From the IMG/VR virus record IMGVR_UViG_3300030106_006157, positions 1 through 43,749 of that record: a stretch of 43,749 nt of DNA. The stretch is one strand, 5' to 3'. Under the pieces are notes generated by a model. The model was not told the origin of the DNA. It ran no database searches and was given only the letters and a program-made list of their open reading frames with translations. Origin of the DNA: a virus. Both the position numbers and the translations under genes were made by a program. This document shows positions 12,525 to 19,504 of the stretch, in pieces. The number at the start of each line of letters is the position of its first letter. The first letter of the stretch is position 1.

Positions 12525-13043
12525 ATGACGGTTCTGTGTGATTGGGAGATCCGCGCTAGGGCAGAAGGCAGTCAGATGGTTGTTCCGTTTAATCCAGAAC
12601 TTTTAAATCCAGCCAGCCTTGACGTGTTGCTTGGGGATTTCTTGATGGTTGAAATCATGTATCAAGAAGATCTGCTCAGGGTCGACATCTCAGGTAAGAC
12701 AGAGGATGACCCATACAAGCTTCTCCCCGGCCACTTTTGCTTGGCTGAGACACGTGAGTTGTTTAATATCCCCGACGACATCAGTGCTCAATTTGTACTC
12801 AAGTCAAGCCGTGCCAGGAGTGGCATTGATCATCTTCTTGCTGGTTGGATCGATCCAGGATTTCATGGAAGTCGATTAACGCTTGAATTAAAAAATGTTC
12901 GTCGTCATCATAGTTTGCCATTGTGGCCAGGAATGAAAATTGGCCAGTTAGTTTTCCATTCTATGTCAAACGTTCCAGTGCATAGTTATCGCGAAACTGG
13001 AAATTACAATAATCACTTGACTGTAATGCCGAGCGTTGCATGA
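12525..13043 (+). CDS. dcd: dCTP deaminase
   Basis: One hundred and seventy-two residues of the dCTP deaminase/dUTPase fold. Diagnostic segments are NPASLDVLLG (28-37), FVLKSSRARSG (90-100) and AGWIDPGFHGSRLTLELKN (106-124), with the catalytic glutamate predicted at E121. The reaction is dCTP + H2O to dUTP + NH3, feeding dTMP synthesis. A bifunctional (deaminase plus dUTPase) form cannot be excluded by eye. It probably shifts the host pyrimidine pool during phage replication. It overlaps the next gene by 4 nt (ATGA). Phages often carry this enzyme beside thymidylate synthase, but none is present here. Confidence 0.88.
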   Translation: MTVLCDWEIRARAEGSQMVVPFNPELLNPASLDVLLGDFLMVEIMYQEDLLRVDISGKTEDDPYKLLPGHFCLAETRELFNIPDDISAQFVLKSSRARSGIDHLLAGWIDPGFHGSRLTLELKNVRRHHSLPLWPGMKIGQLVFHSMSNVPVHSYRETGNYNNHLTVMPSVA

Positions 13044-14077: not shown

Positions 14078-14343
14078 TATTGTTTGCGGCAAAGATAATC
14101 TAATCGTTTAAAGTGGGATATTGGAGCGGCAGTTAAGATGCTAACTTCTACATTGCAGTGAAGCGCGTCGATAACTTGACGTTCCAAATAATCAGGATTG
14201 GACTCGTAAATAACTTGTTCAACGCTCAAAGGCTTGTTTTCTAGGTCGTAGGCGGTAAAGCGTGTGATTGCCAAAGGGAGATCATCGTCATCAATTTGGC
14301 AGTAATGAAGGCAAACCTCTTTGCCAGAGGACTTGTTAAGCAT
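14077..14343 (-). CDS. Small protein of unknown function
   Basis: Eighty-eight residues from ATG 14343, overlapping the end of the upstream RHH-like gene by 8 nt. A longer frame reaching to 14502 exists but runs through that gene and is not its start. The product is mixed alpha/beta (CLHYCQIDDDDLPLAITRFTAYD, NVEVSILTAAPISHF) and has three Cys. It sits between two other small genes in a run that looks like an early regulatory cassette. Function is unknown. Confidence 0.55.
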   Translation of the reverse strand: MLNKSSGKEVCLHYCQIDDDDLPLAITRFTAYDLENKPLSVEQVIYESNPDYLERQVIDALHCNVEVSILTAAPISHFKRLDYLCRKQ

Positions 14344-14596
14344 GTTTTGGTCCAAAGAATTCATTGACAACAGTGGCGACGAGGCTTTCGGCTTGCCGTC
14401 TGTCCAAACCGAAGCTAGAGCGGCGGCGAACTTTGTTAACAGTGTTGTGAAAATCATCGGTTGTAAAGCTGGATCGAGAAGGAGACTGTAAAAGACGCTC
14501 ACGAATTAATTGTGATCTGTTGATACCTTTTTGTTTAGCCTGCGTTGACAGCTCGTCAATCAGCTCTTCGGGGAGAAAAGTTTTAATTTCTTTCAT
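14336..14596 (-). CDS. Ribbon-helix-helix (CopG/MetJ-type) DNA-binding protein
   Basis: Eighty-six residues. The N-terminal 40 residues fit a ribbon-helix-helix: strand KEIKTFLPEELIDEL with the alternating polar residues that read the major groove, helix ELSTQAKQKGI, then NRSQLIRERLLQS. In the family, two such chains dimerise to repress their own or neighbouring promoters. The C-terminal half (TDDFHNTVNKVRRRSS...) looks like an oligomerisation segment. It is followed immediately by three small coupled genes. A plausible operator is within 14597-14605 or upstream, but none was identified. Confidence 0.7.
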   Translation of the reverse strand: MKEIKTFLPEELIDELSTQAKQKGINRSQLIRERLLQSPSRSSFTTDDFHNTVNKVRRRSSFGLDRRQAESLVATVVNEFFGPKHA

Positions 14597-14605
14597 AAAA
14601 AGAGT

Positions 14606-14788
14606 TTACTTCTGTTTGCCAGGTTTTTTCTTTTTGCGGGACGGTTTGATACGAGGTTTTACTTTAAGACGAGCAACGGTCTCGTGATAGCCAGGAGCAT
14701 CTGGGACGCCTGCACGTTTCAAGATTTGAGTCCAGTCCAATGGCGTCTTACGCGCGTATAAATGTCCAGAGTGTCCAGGGCGCTCCAA
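14606..14788 (-). CDS. Small basic protein, possibly a readthrough extension of the replication protein
   Basis: The frame from TTG 14788 gives 60 residues (RPGHSGHLYARKTPLDWTQI, then LKRAGVPDAPGYHETVARLK, then a tail of Lys/Arg/Pro). It is in the same frame as the prim-pol/helicase gene upstream, which ends in TGA at 14858-14860, and no other stop lies between. There is no ATG in the 23-codon linker. It is therefore either an independent gene with a weak TTG start or the distal part reached by TGA readthrough. The pattern W..IL..AGVP..PGY.E is one I associate with small cyanobacterial-plasmid/phage proteins. Confidence 0.45.
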   Translation of the reverse strand: MERPGHSGHLYARKTPLDWTQILKRAGVPDAPGYHETVARLKVKPRIKPSRKKKKPGKQK

Positions 14789-15034
14789 AAAACAGTGATG
14801 CCAATGGATTAGACCCTGGACACGGGGGGTGGACAGGTTAGATGTGTCCAGCCTTAATCAAGCGTATGGCTCGCCTAACTCATCGTCTGGAACAAGCACT
14901 CCATCAACGCAAGCGTCAGACATGTCAATCTCAACCGCTCCATCAAACAGACCCTGGACACCTTGTGATTGTCCAGGGGTAGTGTCCAGGGGTAGATCCT
15001 GCTCCAGCAAAGGTTTTATTGGAGCGGTGGACAC
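14763..15034. repeat. Iteron-like cluster of GTGTCCAGG elements
   Basis: About nine copies of TGTCCAG[GA] or its complement lie within 272 bp: TGTCCAGA 14763-14770, GTGTCCAGGG 14771-14780, CCTGGACAC 14815-14823, TGGACAG 14830-14836, GTGTCCAG 14844-14851, CCTGGACAC 14953-14961, a 13-bp tandem pair GTCCAGGGGTAG at 14971-14983 and 14984-14996, and GTGGACAC 15027-15034. They sit at the 3' end of a replication gene, some of them inside its coding sequence. Such arrays bind initiator proteins at plasmid and phage origins. Binding here is inference. Confidence 0.7.
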
Positions 15035-17128
15035 TCTCTCTCCCTCTCCACACGCGAGGACGGCTTTCCAAGTCTTAGCTTGATTGTTTTCTGGGACGGC
15101 AGAGACAACCAAGCCACGCTTTTCAAGTCTTTGGAGCGATTTCTGAATCGCAGCAGGCTTACCGTCAATTAGCGGATCACAGACGAGATCATCTTTGGTG
15201 CGTGTCTCGGGGTAAACGACTCTGAGTTTTTGAAGGACGCGGTCAGTTACGGAAGCTGGAGAGGTGTCTGTCTCGTTAATGGCAGGAGTGAAGTCAGAGA
15301 TGGTGAAGGAGAGGTCGTCTTGCATCTGCATGACAAGTTGAGTGCCCATGCGACCAGAACGAGACTTCTCGATCGTTATAAAACGGCTGTGAGCCCCTAC
15401 AGAGCGCTTTTCCTCATCTGTCGGCTTGCGTAGCGCCCAAGTCTCGTCAACGGCGTCACGGATGGCTGAGGTGCCTCTAAAGCCACCGGTCTTGTTGGCA
15501 TGGTGAACGATGAGAATTGTGGTTTTAGGGAAGAGGACGCCGTTGTTTTTGGTGAGCCAGTAAAGCGGTGTCGCAAAATCAGACTTGTTCTCATCAAAAG
15601 CTCTACCGCCAGAGCAGCCAATCAACGAGTCAATAACAACCAATTTCGGCTGATGTTTTTTCATCAGTTTGATGAATTGTGCATAGCGCTGAAGCTGCCA
15701 ATCCGTTTGGATCATGCTGTCTGCGGTGATAGGAAAATCAACCTCTTGCAGTTGCTCTTTAAGTTGAACCAAGGGCTGATCGCCATTCAAGAGAACAACT
15801 GGGCCTTGTTTCACTGGGACGTGGTTTCCTCTGACGACAAAGGGTTTGCCTAAGGCGATGTGTTTAGCAAGCGCCCAAGCAGACATTGACTTACCGTCAC
15901 CACCAGCGCCATATATCAAAACAACAGAAGGATGAGGCAAGACATCGGGAATCAAATACTCCCTTTCAGTTTCAGTTTCCATCAACTCTTTAATACTCAT
16001 AATGTCCTTGGACTCTTCAAAAGAAATTTGGTCAACAATTAATTTTTCGAGAGCAGTTTGATCTCGATAGCCAGCTTGTAGCGCAAGAGTATTAAGCTTG
16101 TAATTTACTTCAGCAGGGTTGTCAAGCTCAAGTATTTTCTTGGCGCGTCGGATCACTTCATCGAAGTCAAGGGTAGCTTGGCGGATTTCAGTTACAACTT
16201 TGGCTTCCGCAGATTGAACGATCTTCTTAGTGTCGTCTGAAAATCGTTTACGATCTTTATCTTCTCGATCTGCAAGCCAAATTAAAGTTCCAAGGCCAAT
16301 ACCACTGCCTTTAAATGAGTACCAAATCTCTTTACAAGGGTTTGAATCTTTCCATTCTTTAGCGTAATCAGGGTCATCACAGGACCATGAAGACCAAAGA
16401 TGAAGGCCCATTTCAGTAGGTAAAGCGGAATGAATTGCCATTCCAATCTTTACCCAATGATCACGAGTACCTTTGCCTTGCTGAGTAATAACTGAAAGGC
16501 ATTCAAAGATGATTTGAGCAATCTCATCTTGAGTGCGATCAGTAAAATCCAATTCCTTTTTATTAATGGTGCGGGGAGGTTGTTTCATCTCTGCCAACAA
16601 CCAATCAGGAGCTGTTGGGATCGAAGAGAGGTCACCTTTTAAAAGGTATTGACCTGGATCAGAAACCTTGCCACCAGGGTAAGCGCCAAAAACTACACCT
16701 TGGCGACCCCATAGGATTTCGTAGTCTCCACCGTCTTCTTTGCGCAAGCCATGACCCTTTACGTCGGCCCACAGTTCTTCAGGGATACGGAAGAGGTACT
16801 TGGCTGCGTTGGCCTTAGTGGATGTAATTATTGGAGCGGCATCAAGCGTGGAGCCCCAAGCGTTCAAGTATTTGGAGAGGTTGCGGTCAACATCGAGGAT
16901 GACGATGCCATTGCCACGGATACCAGTGAAGACGCCAACAGCTTTGAGGTCAGGGTTACGTTGGATCGCGAGAGCTACATCGGCAGGTCCGAACTTTTGT
17001 TCATAGCTGGCCTCTAGAGGATTTTTACCAGTAGCTTTTTTGCCAGAAAGCATTCGAGTGCCTTTGGCATAGATTGGAGCGTAAACAAGCCCTTCTGGGA
17101 GAGCCTTGACGAACTGACTAAGATCCAT
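14858..17128 (-). CDS. Prim-pol/AAA helicase replication protein
   Basis: Seven hundred and fifty-six residues with three recognisable parts. (1) A bifunctional primase-polymerase N-terminus with the hhhDhD motif GIVILDVDRN at about 73-82. (2) A PriCT_2-like region at about 205-290 (GKGTRDHWVKIGMAIHSALP, LGTLIWLA). (3) A RepA-type AAA ATPase with Walker A GAGGDGKS near 405-415 and Walker B KLVVIDSL near 494-502. The protein would both prime and unwind DNA at the phage origin. A low-complexity tail (LDTTPGQSQGVQGL) encodes the iteron-like repeats. No separate DNA polymerase was found in the window, so elongation probably uses the host enzyme. It is driven by the leftward promoter at 17.2 kb. 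Confidence 0.85.
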   Translation of the reverse strand: MDLSQFVKALPEGLVYAPIYAKGTRMLSGKKATGKNPLEASYEQKFGPADVALAIQRNPDLKAVGVFTGIRGNGIVILDVDRNLSKYLNAWGSTLDAAPIITSTKANAAKYLFRIPEELWADVKGHGLRKEDGGDYEILWGRQGVVFGAYPGGKVSDPGQYLLKGDLSSIPTAPDWLLAEMKQPPRTINKKELDFTDRTQDEIAQIIFECLSVITQQGKGTRDHWVKIGMAIHSALPTEMGLHLWSSWSCDDPDYAKEWKDSNPCKEIWYSFKGSGIGLGTLIWLADREDKDRKRFSDDTKKIVQSAEAKVVTEIRQATLDFDEVIRRAKKILELDNPAEVNYKLNTLALQAGYRDQTALEKLIVDQISFEESKDIMSIKELMETETEREYLIPDVLPHPSVVLIYGAGGDGKSMSAWALAKHIALGKPFVVRGNHVPVKQGPVVLLNGDQPLVQLKEQLQEVDFPITADSMIQTDWQLQRYAQFIKLMKKHQPKLVVIDSLIGCSGGRAFDENKSDFATPLYWLTKNNGVLFPKTTILIVHHANKTGGFRGTSAIRDAVDETWALRKPTDEEKRSVGAHSRFITIEKSRSGRMGTQLVMQMQDDLSFTISDFTPAINETDTSPASVTDRVLQKLRVVYPETRTKDDLVCDPLIDGKPAAIQKSLQRLEKRGLVVSAVPENNQAKTWKAVLACGEGERVSTAPIKPLLEQDLPLDTTPGQSQGVQGLFDGAVEIDMSDACVDGVLVPDDELGEPYA

Positions 17129-17154: not shown

Positions 17155-17199
17155 ACCCGATTAAGCCCTTTACTCCGGGGCTTGGTCGGGTCTTTTTTT
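17155..17199 (+). terminator. Orphan rightward terminator in the divergent intergenic region
   Basis: A 14-bp stem (17155-17168 with 17178-17191, two G-T pairs) encloses a 9-nt loop and is followed by seven T on the plus strand. No plus-strand gene ends here: the previous plus gene stops at 13493. It may block antisense transcripts entering from the left. On the minus strand the same stem lies in the leader of the prim-pol mRNA. Confidence 0.8.
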
Positions 17200-18528: not shown

Positions 18529-18693
18529 ATGATCGAAGCACCAGAAGCTGTGACGACATTCATGGAAGACGGTTCTGTTGCGGTCATTGTTGGTAATCTG
18601 ATTGGGGTTGTGTCCAGCACTCATCTGGCGGAACCAAAAGCAAACCAGCTACGTCAACGCTGGCTGGAAGAAAACGCCATTCATGACGATTAA
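18529..18693 (+). CDS. Very small protein upstream of the exonuclease
   Basis: Fifty-four residues starting at ATG 18529 after a good ribosome site (GGAAAGGAGTG, 4 nt away). Sequence MIEAPEAVTTFMEDGSVAVI then VGNLIGVVSSTHLAEPKANQ, compact and beta-rich with a charged C-terminal helix. It overlaps the exonuclease start by 11 nt, so it likely couples translation or modulates the exonuclease. Function is unknown. Confidence 0.6.
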   Translation: MIEAPEAVTTFMEDGSVAVIVGNLIGVVSSTHLAEPKANQLRQRWLEENAIHDD

Positions 18694-19504
18694 AGCTGAT
18701 CCTCAAAACATTTTGGCGTCATTGAGGCGTTGGGAGCTAGAACAGGATAACTCTGGTCCATTCAGGGTTTATCGAGATCAAGAGGGGCAGATTTATCATT
18801 CTGTCACTCATATCTTGAAGCACACCGCTCCTCAATCGCAGAAAGATGCATTGGAACGCTGGTCTAAGAGAGCTGGCAGTGGTTTGGAGCGTGACCTTGC
18901 TTGTGACCGTGGCACCATTGCTCATGAACATTGTGAATATATTCTCAAGACCGCGTCCAAGCTGGCACGTCAAAGTGCCAACAAGAAAGGATCGTGGAAG
19001 ATTTGGGATGATGGTTTGGCACGTGCTCCAAAAGCCATCACCTCCTGGGCACTTAAGAAGTCGAAGGAAAATGCGCCAAAGGTTGCATGGCCAGCCCGTG
19101 AGTACGCCAGAGGTTTATCCGACTGGTTGGTAAGTGGCACGGTAACGGCCATTCATGCCTCAGAGTTTAGTGTCAGCAGTGAGGATGGCTTTGCTGGAAC
19201 GGCAGACGCCCTTATAGACACGCCATTGGGTTTGACGATTTGTGATTTTAAAACGACGAGTAGGGAAGCAGACAAGCCAGAGGGATGGCTAAAGGATCAT
19301 CAGGACCAACTTGGTGCTTATAGCCTTGGATTACGCGAGAGGGCTGGAATCCGTGTCGATGCTGGAGCGGTAATTATTGCGAAGCCAAACGGCAATGTGC
19401 AACTAAGGATGTTGAGCGAATTAGAGATGAGAGGCTGTGAAGCCCGATGGACTGAAAGGAACAATGCATATAAAGAGATGTTATTAAGCGGCCTTGTTTG
19501 CTAG
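18683..19504 (+). CDS. PD-(D/E)XK exonuclease
   Basis: Two hundred and seventy-three residues, with the start at ATG 18683 chosen over an upstream in-frame start because of the coupling to the previous gene. The motifs match PDDEXK_1 / RecB-like exonucleases: motif I with RGTIAHEHCEYIL (77-89), E161 in the EFSV strand, D175 in GTADA, D188-x-K190 in ICDFKTT, and QLGAYSLGL (209-217). It would digest one strand of duplex ends for recombination, repair or host DNA breakdown, using ssDNA that the SSB-like protein could coat. The 3' end overlaps the convergent gene by 4 nt. Confidence 0.85.
   Translation: MTIKADPQNILASLRRWELEQDNSGPFRVYRDQEGQIYHSVTHILKHTAPQSQKDALERWSKRAGSGLERDLACDRGTIAHEHCEYILKTASKLARQSANKKGSWKIWDDGLARAPKAITSWALKKSKENAPKVAWPAREYARGLSDWLVSGTVTAIHASEFSVSSEDGFAGTADALIDTPLGLTICDFKTTSREADKPEGWLKDHQDQLGAYSLGLRERAGIRVDAGAVIIAKPNGNVQLRMLSELEMRGCEARWTERNNAYKEMLLSGLVC

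Follow-up and report, generated by a model that had tools for sequence, protein, structure and literature searches.

The locus analyzed here raises the question of whether a cluster of short repeats, lying in and just after the 3′ end of a replication gene, is the origin at which a phage starts its own replication, and which protein would read it. The window, that is, the whole stretch of DNA analyzed, is a complete IMG/VR virus record of 43,749 bp. It corresponds to a tailed phage with genes for terminase, portal, major head protein, and tail fibre. Among named phages, cyanophage S-2L is the nearest in terminase and, considering full-length matches, in portal, with identities of 38-45%. The answer developed below, which rests on sequence comparison and predicted structures, is that the repeats probably constitute the phage's iteron replication origin, bound by its own PrimPol-helicase, a reading to which we assign a probability of about 0.82.

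The TGTCCA array in the window

The proposed origin spans positions 14763-15033 (271 bp) and contains nine TGTCCA hexamers, five on the plus strand and four on the minus strand. The PrimPol-helicase gene (14858-17128) is encoded on the minus strand, and four of the sites are located inside its 3′ end, with the other five beyond its stop codon in 14763-14857. A first-pass annotation of this DNA had described about nine elements in both orientations, with a 13-bp tandem pair, in and just after this gene, a description that holds at each point. The two units of the tandem pair, TGTCCAGGGGTAG, match exactly (14970-14982 and 14983-14995), and the pair is present nowhere else in the record.

Eight of the nine iterons are arranged as an exact dyad. 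Iteron 1 (15028-15033, minus strand) is the partner of iteron 8 (14772-14777, plus); iteron 2 (14983-14988, plus), which belongs to the second 13-bp tandem unit, of iteron 7 (14817-14822, minus); iteron 3 (14970-14975, plus), from the first tandem unit, of iteron 6 (14830-14835, minus); and iteron 4 (14955-14960, minus) of iteron 5 (14845-14850, plus). In the four pairs (14772/15028, 14817/14983, 14830/14970, and 14845/14955) the partners lie on opposite strands and their start positions sum to 29800, with the dyad axis at 14902.5. Iteron 9 (14763-14768, plus) is an extra copy outside the dyad, located 9 bp beyond iteron 8 and shared by most members of the window's clade.

Neither the density nor the symmetry of the array is reproduced readily by shuffling. 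The next cluster of TGTCCA in the window has five copies, and the maximum in 200 Markov-shuffled windows was seven, versus the nine observed. Synonymous shuffling of the gene gave four copies in its last 180 nt in none of 2000 trials. Moreover, random placement of the sites never produced a four-pair dyad in 200,000 attempts, and permuting the observed spacings and orientations did so in 177 of 200,000. A loose 9-mer allowing two mismatches showed no enrichment over the whole window (93 occurrences versus 91 expected), which indicates that the hexamer core carries the signal.

The centre between the inner iterons (14851-14954) is 56 bp longer than in close relatives. Compared with a relative of 97-98% identity (L003), this corresponds to an insertion that replaces the conserved C-terminal EEAGHI with a longer tail and leaves all the iterons intact. 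No AT-rich unwinding element was found in the centre or in the flanks, the AT content of the centre being 48.8% versus 48.5% for the gene body. Also, the cumulative GC skew, suggested by the first-pass annotation as a check, rises without inflection at 14.8-15.0 kb and so lends the idea no help, this being a weak test for a 44-kb phage.

Domain organization of the PrimPol-helicase

The gene, defined by its open reading frame, translation, and domain matches, encodes a 756-residue initiator candidate in which a PrimPol-type N-terminus is followed by PriCT_2, a RecA/RepA-like ATPase, a C-terminal winged helix, and a disordered tail. The primase-polymerase region (residues 1-200; 16529-17128, minus strand) is assigned from a match to the DNA primase family phrog_1156 over residues 19-295 and from PF09250 (Prim-Pol) in relatives. 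A profile search gave no direct PF09250 match in the window protein itself, the domain being above the cut-off in the relatives L074 and L126, which places the family among the AEP primases. PriCT_2 covers residues 209-286 (16271-16504, minus; 1.2e-13). The helicase domain, AAA_25 or RepA/DnaB-like, covers residues 379-548 (15485-15994, minus; AAA_25 3.5e-20), and its fold resembles those of RSF1010 RepA and DnaB.

At the C-terminal end, AlphaFold models predict a winged helix of the MarR/PadR type (residues 627-689; 15062-15250, minus), for which Foldseek returns MarR-family proteins, DNA complexes among them. Its predicted recognition helix comprises residues 658-670 (15119-15157, minus), and the fifth residue of this helix is Q662 (codon 15143-15145, minus). 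From residue 692 onward the tail is predicted to be disordered, with pLDDT below 50. The array thereby occupies a stretch of weak coding constraint, formed by the sequence coding for the disordered tail and the DNA just past it.

Conservation of the array among relatives

Eight scans of viral sequences and one of genomes recovered 366 gene-bearing loci, many of them overlapping, of which 178 are non-redundant; the array set consists of the 163 in which a single motif occurs four or more times. In about 160 non-redundant loci, the array shares its position at the 3′ end of the gene. Close relatives, in which the first-pass annotation had allowed that the repeats might be missing, carry it with the same geometry wherever they were examined.

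The core layout reads F-45-R-28-F | R-28-F-45-R, to which a 13-bp doublet may be added. Of the 163 loci, 116 have the convergent 45-bp pair on both sides and 28 have it on a single side, the inner spacing is 27-28 bp, and the outer R is either a single site or a 13-bp doublet. This geometry is constant to about 1 bp among proteins of approximately 42-50% identity. The stop codon is located inside the array in the window's clade and 60-110 nt past it in other families. Since the position of the stop varies, and since the 56-bp insertion spares the iterons, the array is kept as DNA and not as protein sequence.

Three further observations concern these relatives. A second element, TGGARCG, is about 11-fold enriched in the array region (1.98 versus 0.18 per 450 bp) and often lies 17-18, 27-28, or 35 bp from an F iteron, even in the non-coding region; it is present in the arrays of many relatives (for example, L086 and L222) and in the window at 14763-15033. 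Two gene-bearing contigs, L085 and L086, are binned with Microbacteriaceae and Saprospirales metagenome-assembled genomes, and they may represent phage DNA binned with the wrong host. Finally, a "RecA-family ATPase" of Synechococcus phage S-CBS4 was considered as a relative and set aside, lacking both the PrimPol layout and the array.

Residue 662 and the sixth base of the motif

The hexamer differs between families. The window's clade has TGTCCA and most others have TGTCCC; TGTCGC or TGTCAC is found in the L162/L066 group, TGTTTC in L077 and L126, and TGTCCT in L088. Within one array nearly all copies tend to switch together with the geometry unchanged, as predicted for a concerted change with one reader; mixed arrays are few. 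In three of these (L301, L302, and L270) TGTCCC coexists with TGTCCT or TGTCCA copies, TGTCCT being the second motif in L301 and L270, and they were perhaps caught partway through a switch.

A comparison of the protein columns with the motif singles out residue 662. Among 597 columns in 95 loci, it is the only one with disjoint residue sets between A-class and C-class arrays. Also, it predicts motif base 6 correctly in 148 of 149 TGTCCA/TGTCCC loci, ranking first of 673 columns, with Arg or Lys accompanying C (108 loci) and His, Gln, or Gly accompanying A (40 loci). The runner-up, column 725, belongs to the tail that is encoded by the iterons themselves, and the other columns of the winged helix track the motif less well. 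The one clear exception is L367, with Arg and a TGTCCA array beside relatives with Gln and TGTCCA, where the Arg is possibly a recent change. The rule fails to extend to the divergent families L125, L222, and L224, whose TGTCAA arrays are found with Lys or Arg at this position.

Trees constructed from the part of the protein that precedes the winged helix place about 5-7 changes at base 6. In the first tree, residue 662 follows the base in all five independent pairs marked by a star, and in a larger tree, which contains the exception L367, it does so in three to four of the four pairs; because independent pairs are few, the sign tests on both trees stay above 0.05. For example, the sisters L072 and L088 differ by a Lys to Asn replacement at 662 alongside a C to T change at base 6. 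As the winged helix adjoins the array, some of these switches possibly reflect joint recombination of both.

The identity of the residues is also suggestive. Arg and Lys tend to read G, whereas Gln and Asn tend to read A, and from this chemistry a direct contact is the natural reading of the covariation, so that residue 662 would touch base pair 6. A second contact at motif position 5 was considered and discarded: identical helices carry TGTCAC or TGTCGC. The covariation points to the encoded PrimPol-helicase as the reader of the repeats. Together with the conserved array, it favors what the first-pass annotation had proposed from the repeats, namely an origin embedded in coding sequence and recognized by its own initiator. 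The multiple short repeats clustered beside an initiator gene are also what is expected of an iteron origin.

Alternative readings of the array

The alternative that survives best, although we consider it unlikely, is that the repeats form an autoregulatory operator, bound by the winged helix or by another regulator for control of transcription and not for replication. The MarR/PadR type is indeed a fold of transcription regulators, and many initiators also autoregulate. However, in the 112 loci for which upstream sequence is available, sites of a locus's own motif occur upstream of the gene at 0.10 per 400 bp, compared with 6.95 in the array, and the array is placed at the 3′ end, where the coding sequence contains part or all of it. 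Moreover, a dyad with 45-bp arms exceeds the usual size of an operator.

Less probable still is base pairing between the inverted copies to give RNA or DNA hairpins (a stem-loop origin, a terminator, or an RNA element), which would drive the common changes of motif. Single-strand folding of the window's array does give a z of -3.3, and pRN1 and phage BIP-1 have a stem-loop 3′ of a gene for a PrimPol-helicase-winged-helix protein (PMC4234260). Nonetheless, a conserved large stem-loop of that type was not found here, and the two arms of a 45-bp pair do not match each other better than controls do, flank complementarity being 2.73 of 6 for 45-bp partners, 2.64 for non-partners, and 2.69 for same-strand copies, for which pairing is impossible. 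Also, the 13-bp doublets switch motif as well despite lying on the same strand, pairing leaves the link with residue 662 unexplained, and an Rfam search gave no match.

A comparably small chance is given to the repeats being read by a different DNA-binding protein, from the phage or its host, one candidate being the CopG/RHH-like product of the ORF at 14336-14596, downstream of the PrimPol-helicase gene. This ORF is a neighbor in only 73 of 165 loci, some of which are short fragments, and whole array-bearing families are without it, whereas the residue that tracks the motif belongs to the PrimPol protein itself. Finally, a chance expansion of repeats in a low-complexity tail, which a predicted disordered segment could tolerate, has a negligible probability and is excluded as a coding artefact because the non-coding half, with more than half of the window's sites, is conserved and the dyad is exact, the geometry being held to about 1 bp and synonymous shuffles failing to reproduce the cluster.

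Comparison with known replication systems

The reading of the array as an origin bound by its own PrimPol-helicase finds partial counterparts in several systems. According to PMC7581432 (citing Ubeda et al. 2007), SaPI Rep/ori and SCCmec Cch2 have short iterons directly downstream of the gene for the initiator-helicase, recognized by the C-terminal domain of the helicase, with apparently two hexamers bound. The position of the iterons is shared with the arrays described here, which lie partly or wholly inside the gene, and so is a C-terminal DNA-binding domain on the helicase, in our case a predicted fold. On the other hand, the SaPI and Cch2 helicases are of the DUF927 or D5/Primase_Cterm types, whereas here a RepA/DnaB-like AAA_25 domain is fused to a PrimPol. 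In addition, unlike the SaPI ori, the array shows exact mirror symmetry, extends into coding sequence, and lacks an AT-rich segment.

As outlined in PMC4234260, the P4 alpha protein combines primase, helicase, and winged helix in one chain and binds repeats at its origin. However, its primase is of the TOPRIM type and not a PrimPol (AEP), and the iterons differ in sequence and layout. By analogy, the array system would work like SaPI Rep/ori and P4 alpha/ori, with a helicase of the RepA/DnaB type.

Closer in their primase are pRN1 ORF904 and the replication protein of phage BIP-1, which join PrimPol, helicase, and a C-terminal winged helix and have the origin 3′ of the gene (PMC4234260). In contrast to the iterons and RecA-type helicase of the window, the origin proposed for them is a large stem-loop that has no iterons, and their helicase belongs to SF3. 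PrimQH (PrimPol-PV1), as portrayed in part of PMC5862659, consists of AEP, PriCT-1/2, a P-loop ATPase (in some cases of RepA/DnaB type), and a C-terminal winged helix predicted to recognize origins. The window protein has the same order of PriCT, P-loop ATPase, and C-terminal winged helix, and whereas those passages give no origin for PrimQH, here we describe an array cognate to the protein and a candidate residue for its specificity.

Among helicases of solved structure, RSF1010 RepA is the closest, and RSF1010 also has an iteron oriV; however, it uses three separate proteins (RepA, RepC, and RepB′), whose functions appear fused in one here. Phage lambda offers another precedent for the location, as its iterons are inside the gene of the initiator O, which is neither a helicase nor a primase and whose sequence is unrelated to that of the window protein. 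These analogues aside, no PrimPol-iteron origin or code linking a residue to an iteron was found in the searchable literature, and both the PrimPol-helicase origin and its specificity residue appear undescribed there.

Proposed mechanism and implications

In the proposed mechanism, the winged helix would bind every TGTCCA through the major groove, where residue 662, in the recognition helix, would lie opposite base pair 6. Each mirror block, composed of one outer site, the 13-bp doublet, and one inner site, would serve to assemble one of two oligomeric, probably hexameric, helicases, which would be in opposite orientation around 14902.5. The two helicases would then melt the DNA and unwind outward, and the PrimPol and PriCT domains would prime the exposed strands, giving rise to bidirectional forks. 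The array, its exact symmetry, its conservation with motif switching across families, the predicted winged-helix fold, and the covariation of residue 662 with base 6 are what the analysis shows; direct binding, melting, origin activity, the two hexamers, and bidirectionality are what we infer. The small downstream ORF of 44 residues (14606-14740, minus strand), read from the sequence and starting with TTG in the window and ATG in relatives, is dispensable to this model. An in-frame continuation past the TGA of the PrimPol-helicase gene by recoding was also considered and dropped, given that relatives stop normally nearby and have a separate small ORF with an ATG start.

If the arrangement is general, it could define a new class of replicon, a tentative proposal to which we give slightly less than even odds. 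In such a class, a single PrimPol-helicase would act on its own dyad-symmetric origin, located in the gene and devoid of a DNA unwinding element, to set up two head-to-head replisomes, and a change of one residue and one base pair would re-specify the system into incompatible origin types. The class, if real, would be widespread in phages and cyanobacterial plasmids, with the re-specification spanning all eight or nine sites.

The phages that host the array occur in many aquatic metagenomes, and no described origin was found for them; the array supplies a precise candidate for both origin and initiator in hundreds of contigs. Moreover, the families provide natural matched sets of initiator and origin whose differences are mostly confined to a single residue and a single base pair, which makes initiator specificity, origin incompatibility, and the co-evolution of a multi-copy origin with its reader directly testable. 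The pairing of the motif with residue 662 would represent a natural one-residue recognition code, accessible at the bench, and the exact mirror geometry is a structural constraint on models of how PrimPol-helicases load themselves for bidirectional replication.

Related clusters in cyanobacterial plasmids and genomic setting

A distant homologue, of about 25% identity to the window protein, is present in two cyanobacterial plasmids with comparable clusters at the end of the gene. In Anabaena pANACY.03 (L371, 3516-3735), a TGTCCA cluster at the 3′ end of the gene shows the spacing run 48-12-...-12-48, and in Nostoc p057_I (L373, 3514-3704) a TGTTAG cluster at the same place shows the spacing 47-12-.... 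A short same-strand array with spacings of 12-13 bp is also observed in Synechocystis B12 (L372, 3728-3802). The host genes of the three clusters are annotated as "AAA family ATPase," and the orientations in the plasmids form no exact mirror. A simple shuffle control over 650 bp around the end of the plasmid gene was not decisive for the weaker clusters. As plasmids need an origin, these clusters support the reading of the phage array as one, and some cyanobacterial plasmids probably share the in-gene arrangement.

The surroundings of the replication gene in the window contain other features. A strong terminator-like hairpin with a T-run is found on the plus strand at 17155-17191, just ahead of the 5′ end of the PrimPol gene. 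Also near the gene are encoded a dCTP-deaminase-like protein (12525-13043; 8.8e-30) and a PD-(D/E)XK nuclease-like protein (18602-19504; 3.4e-8).
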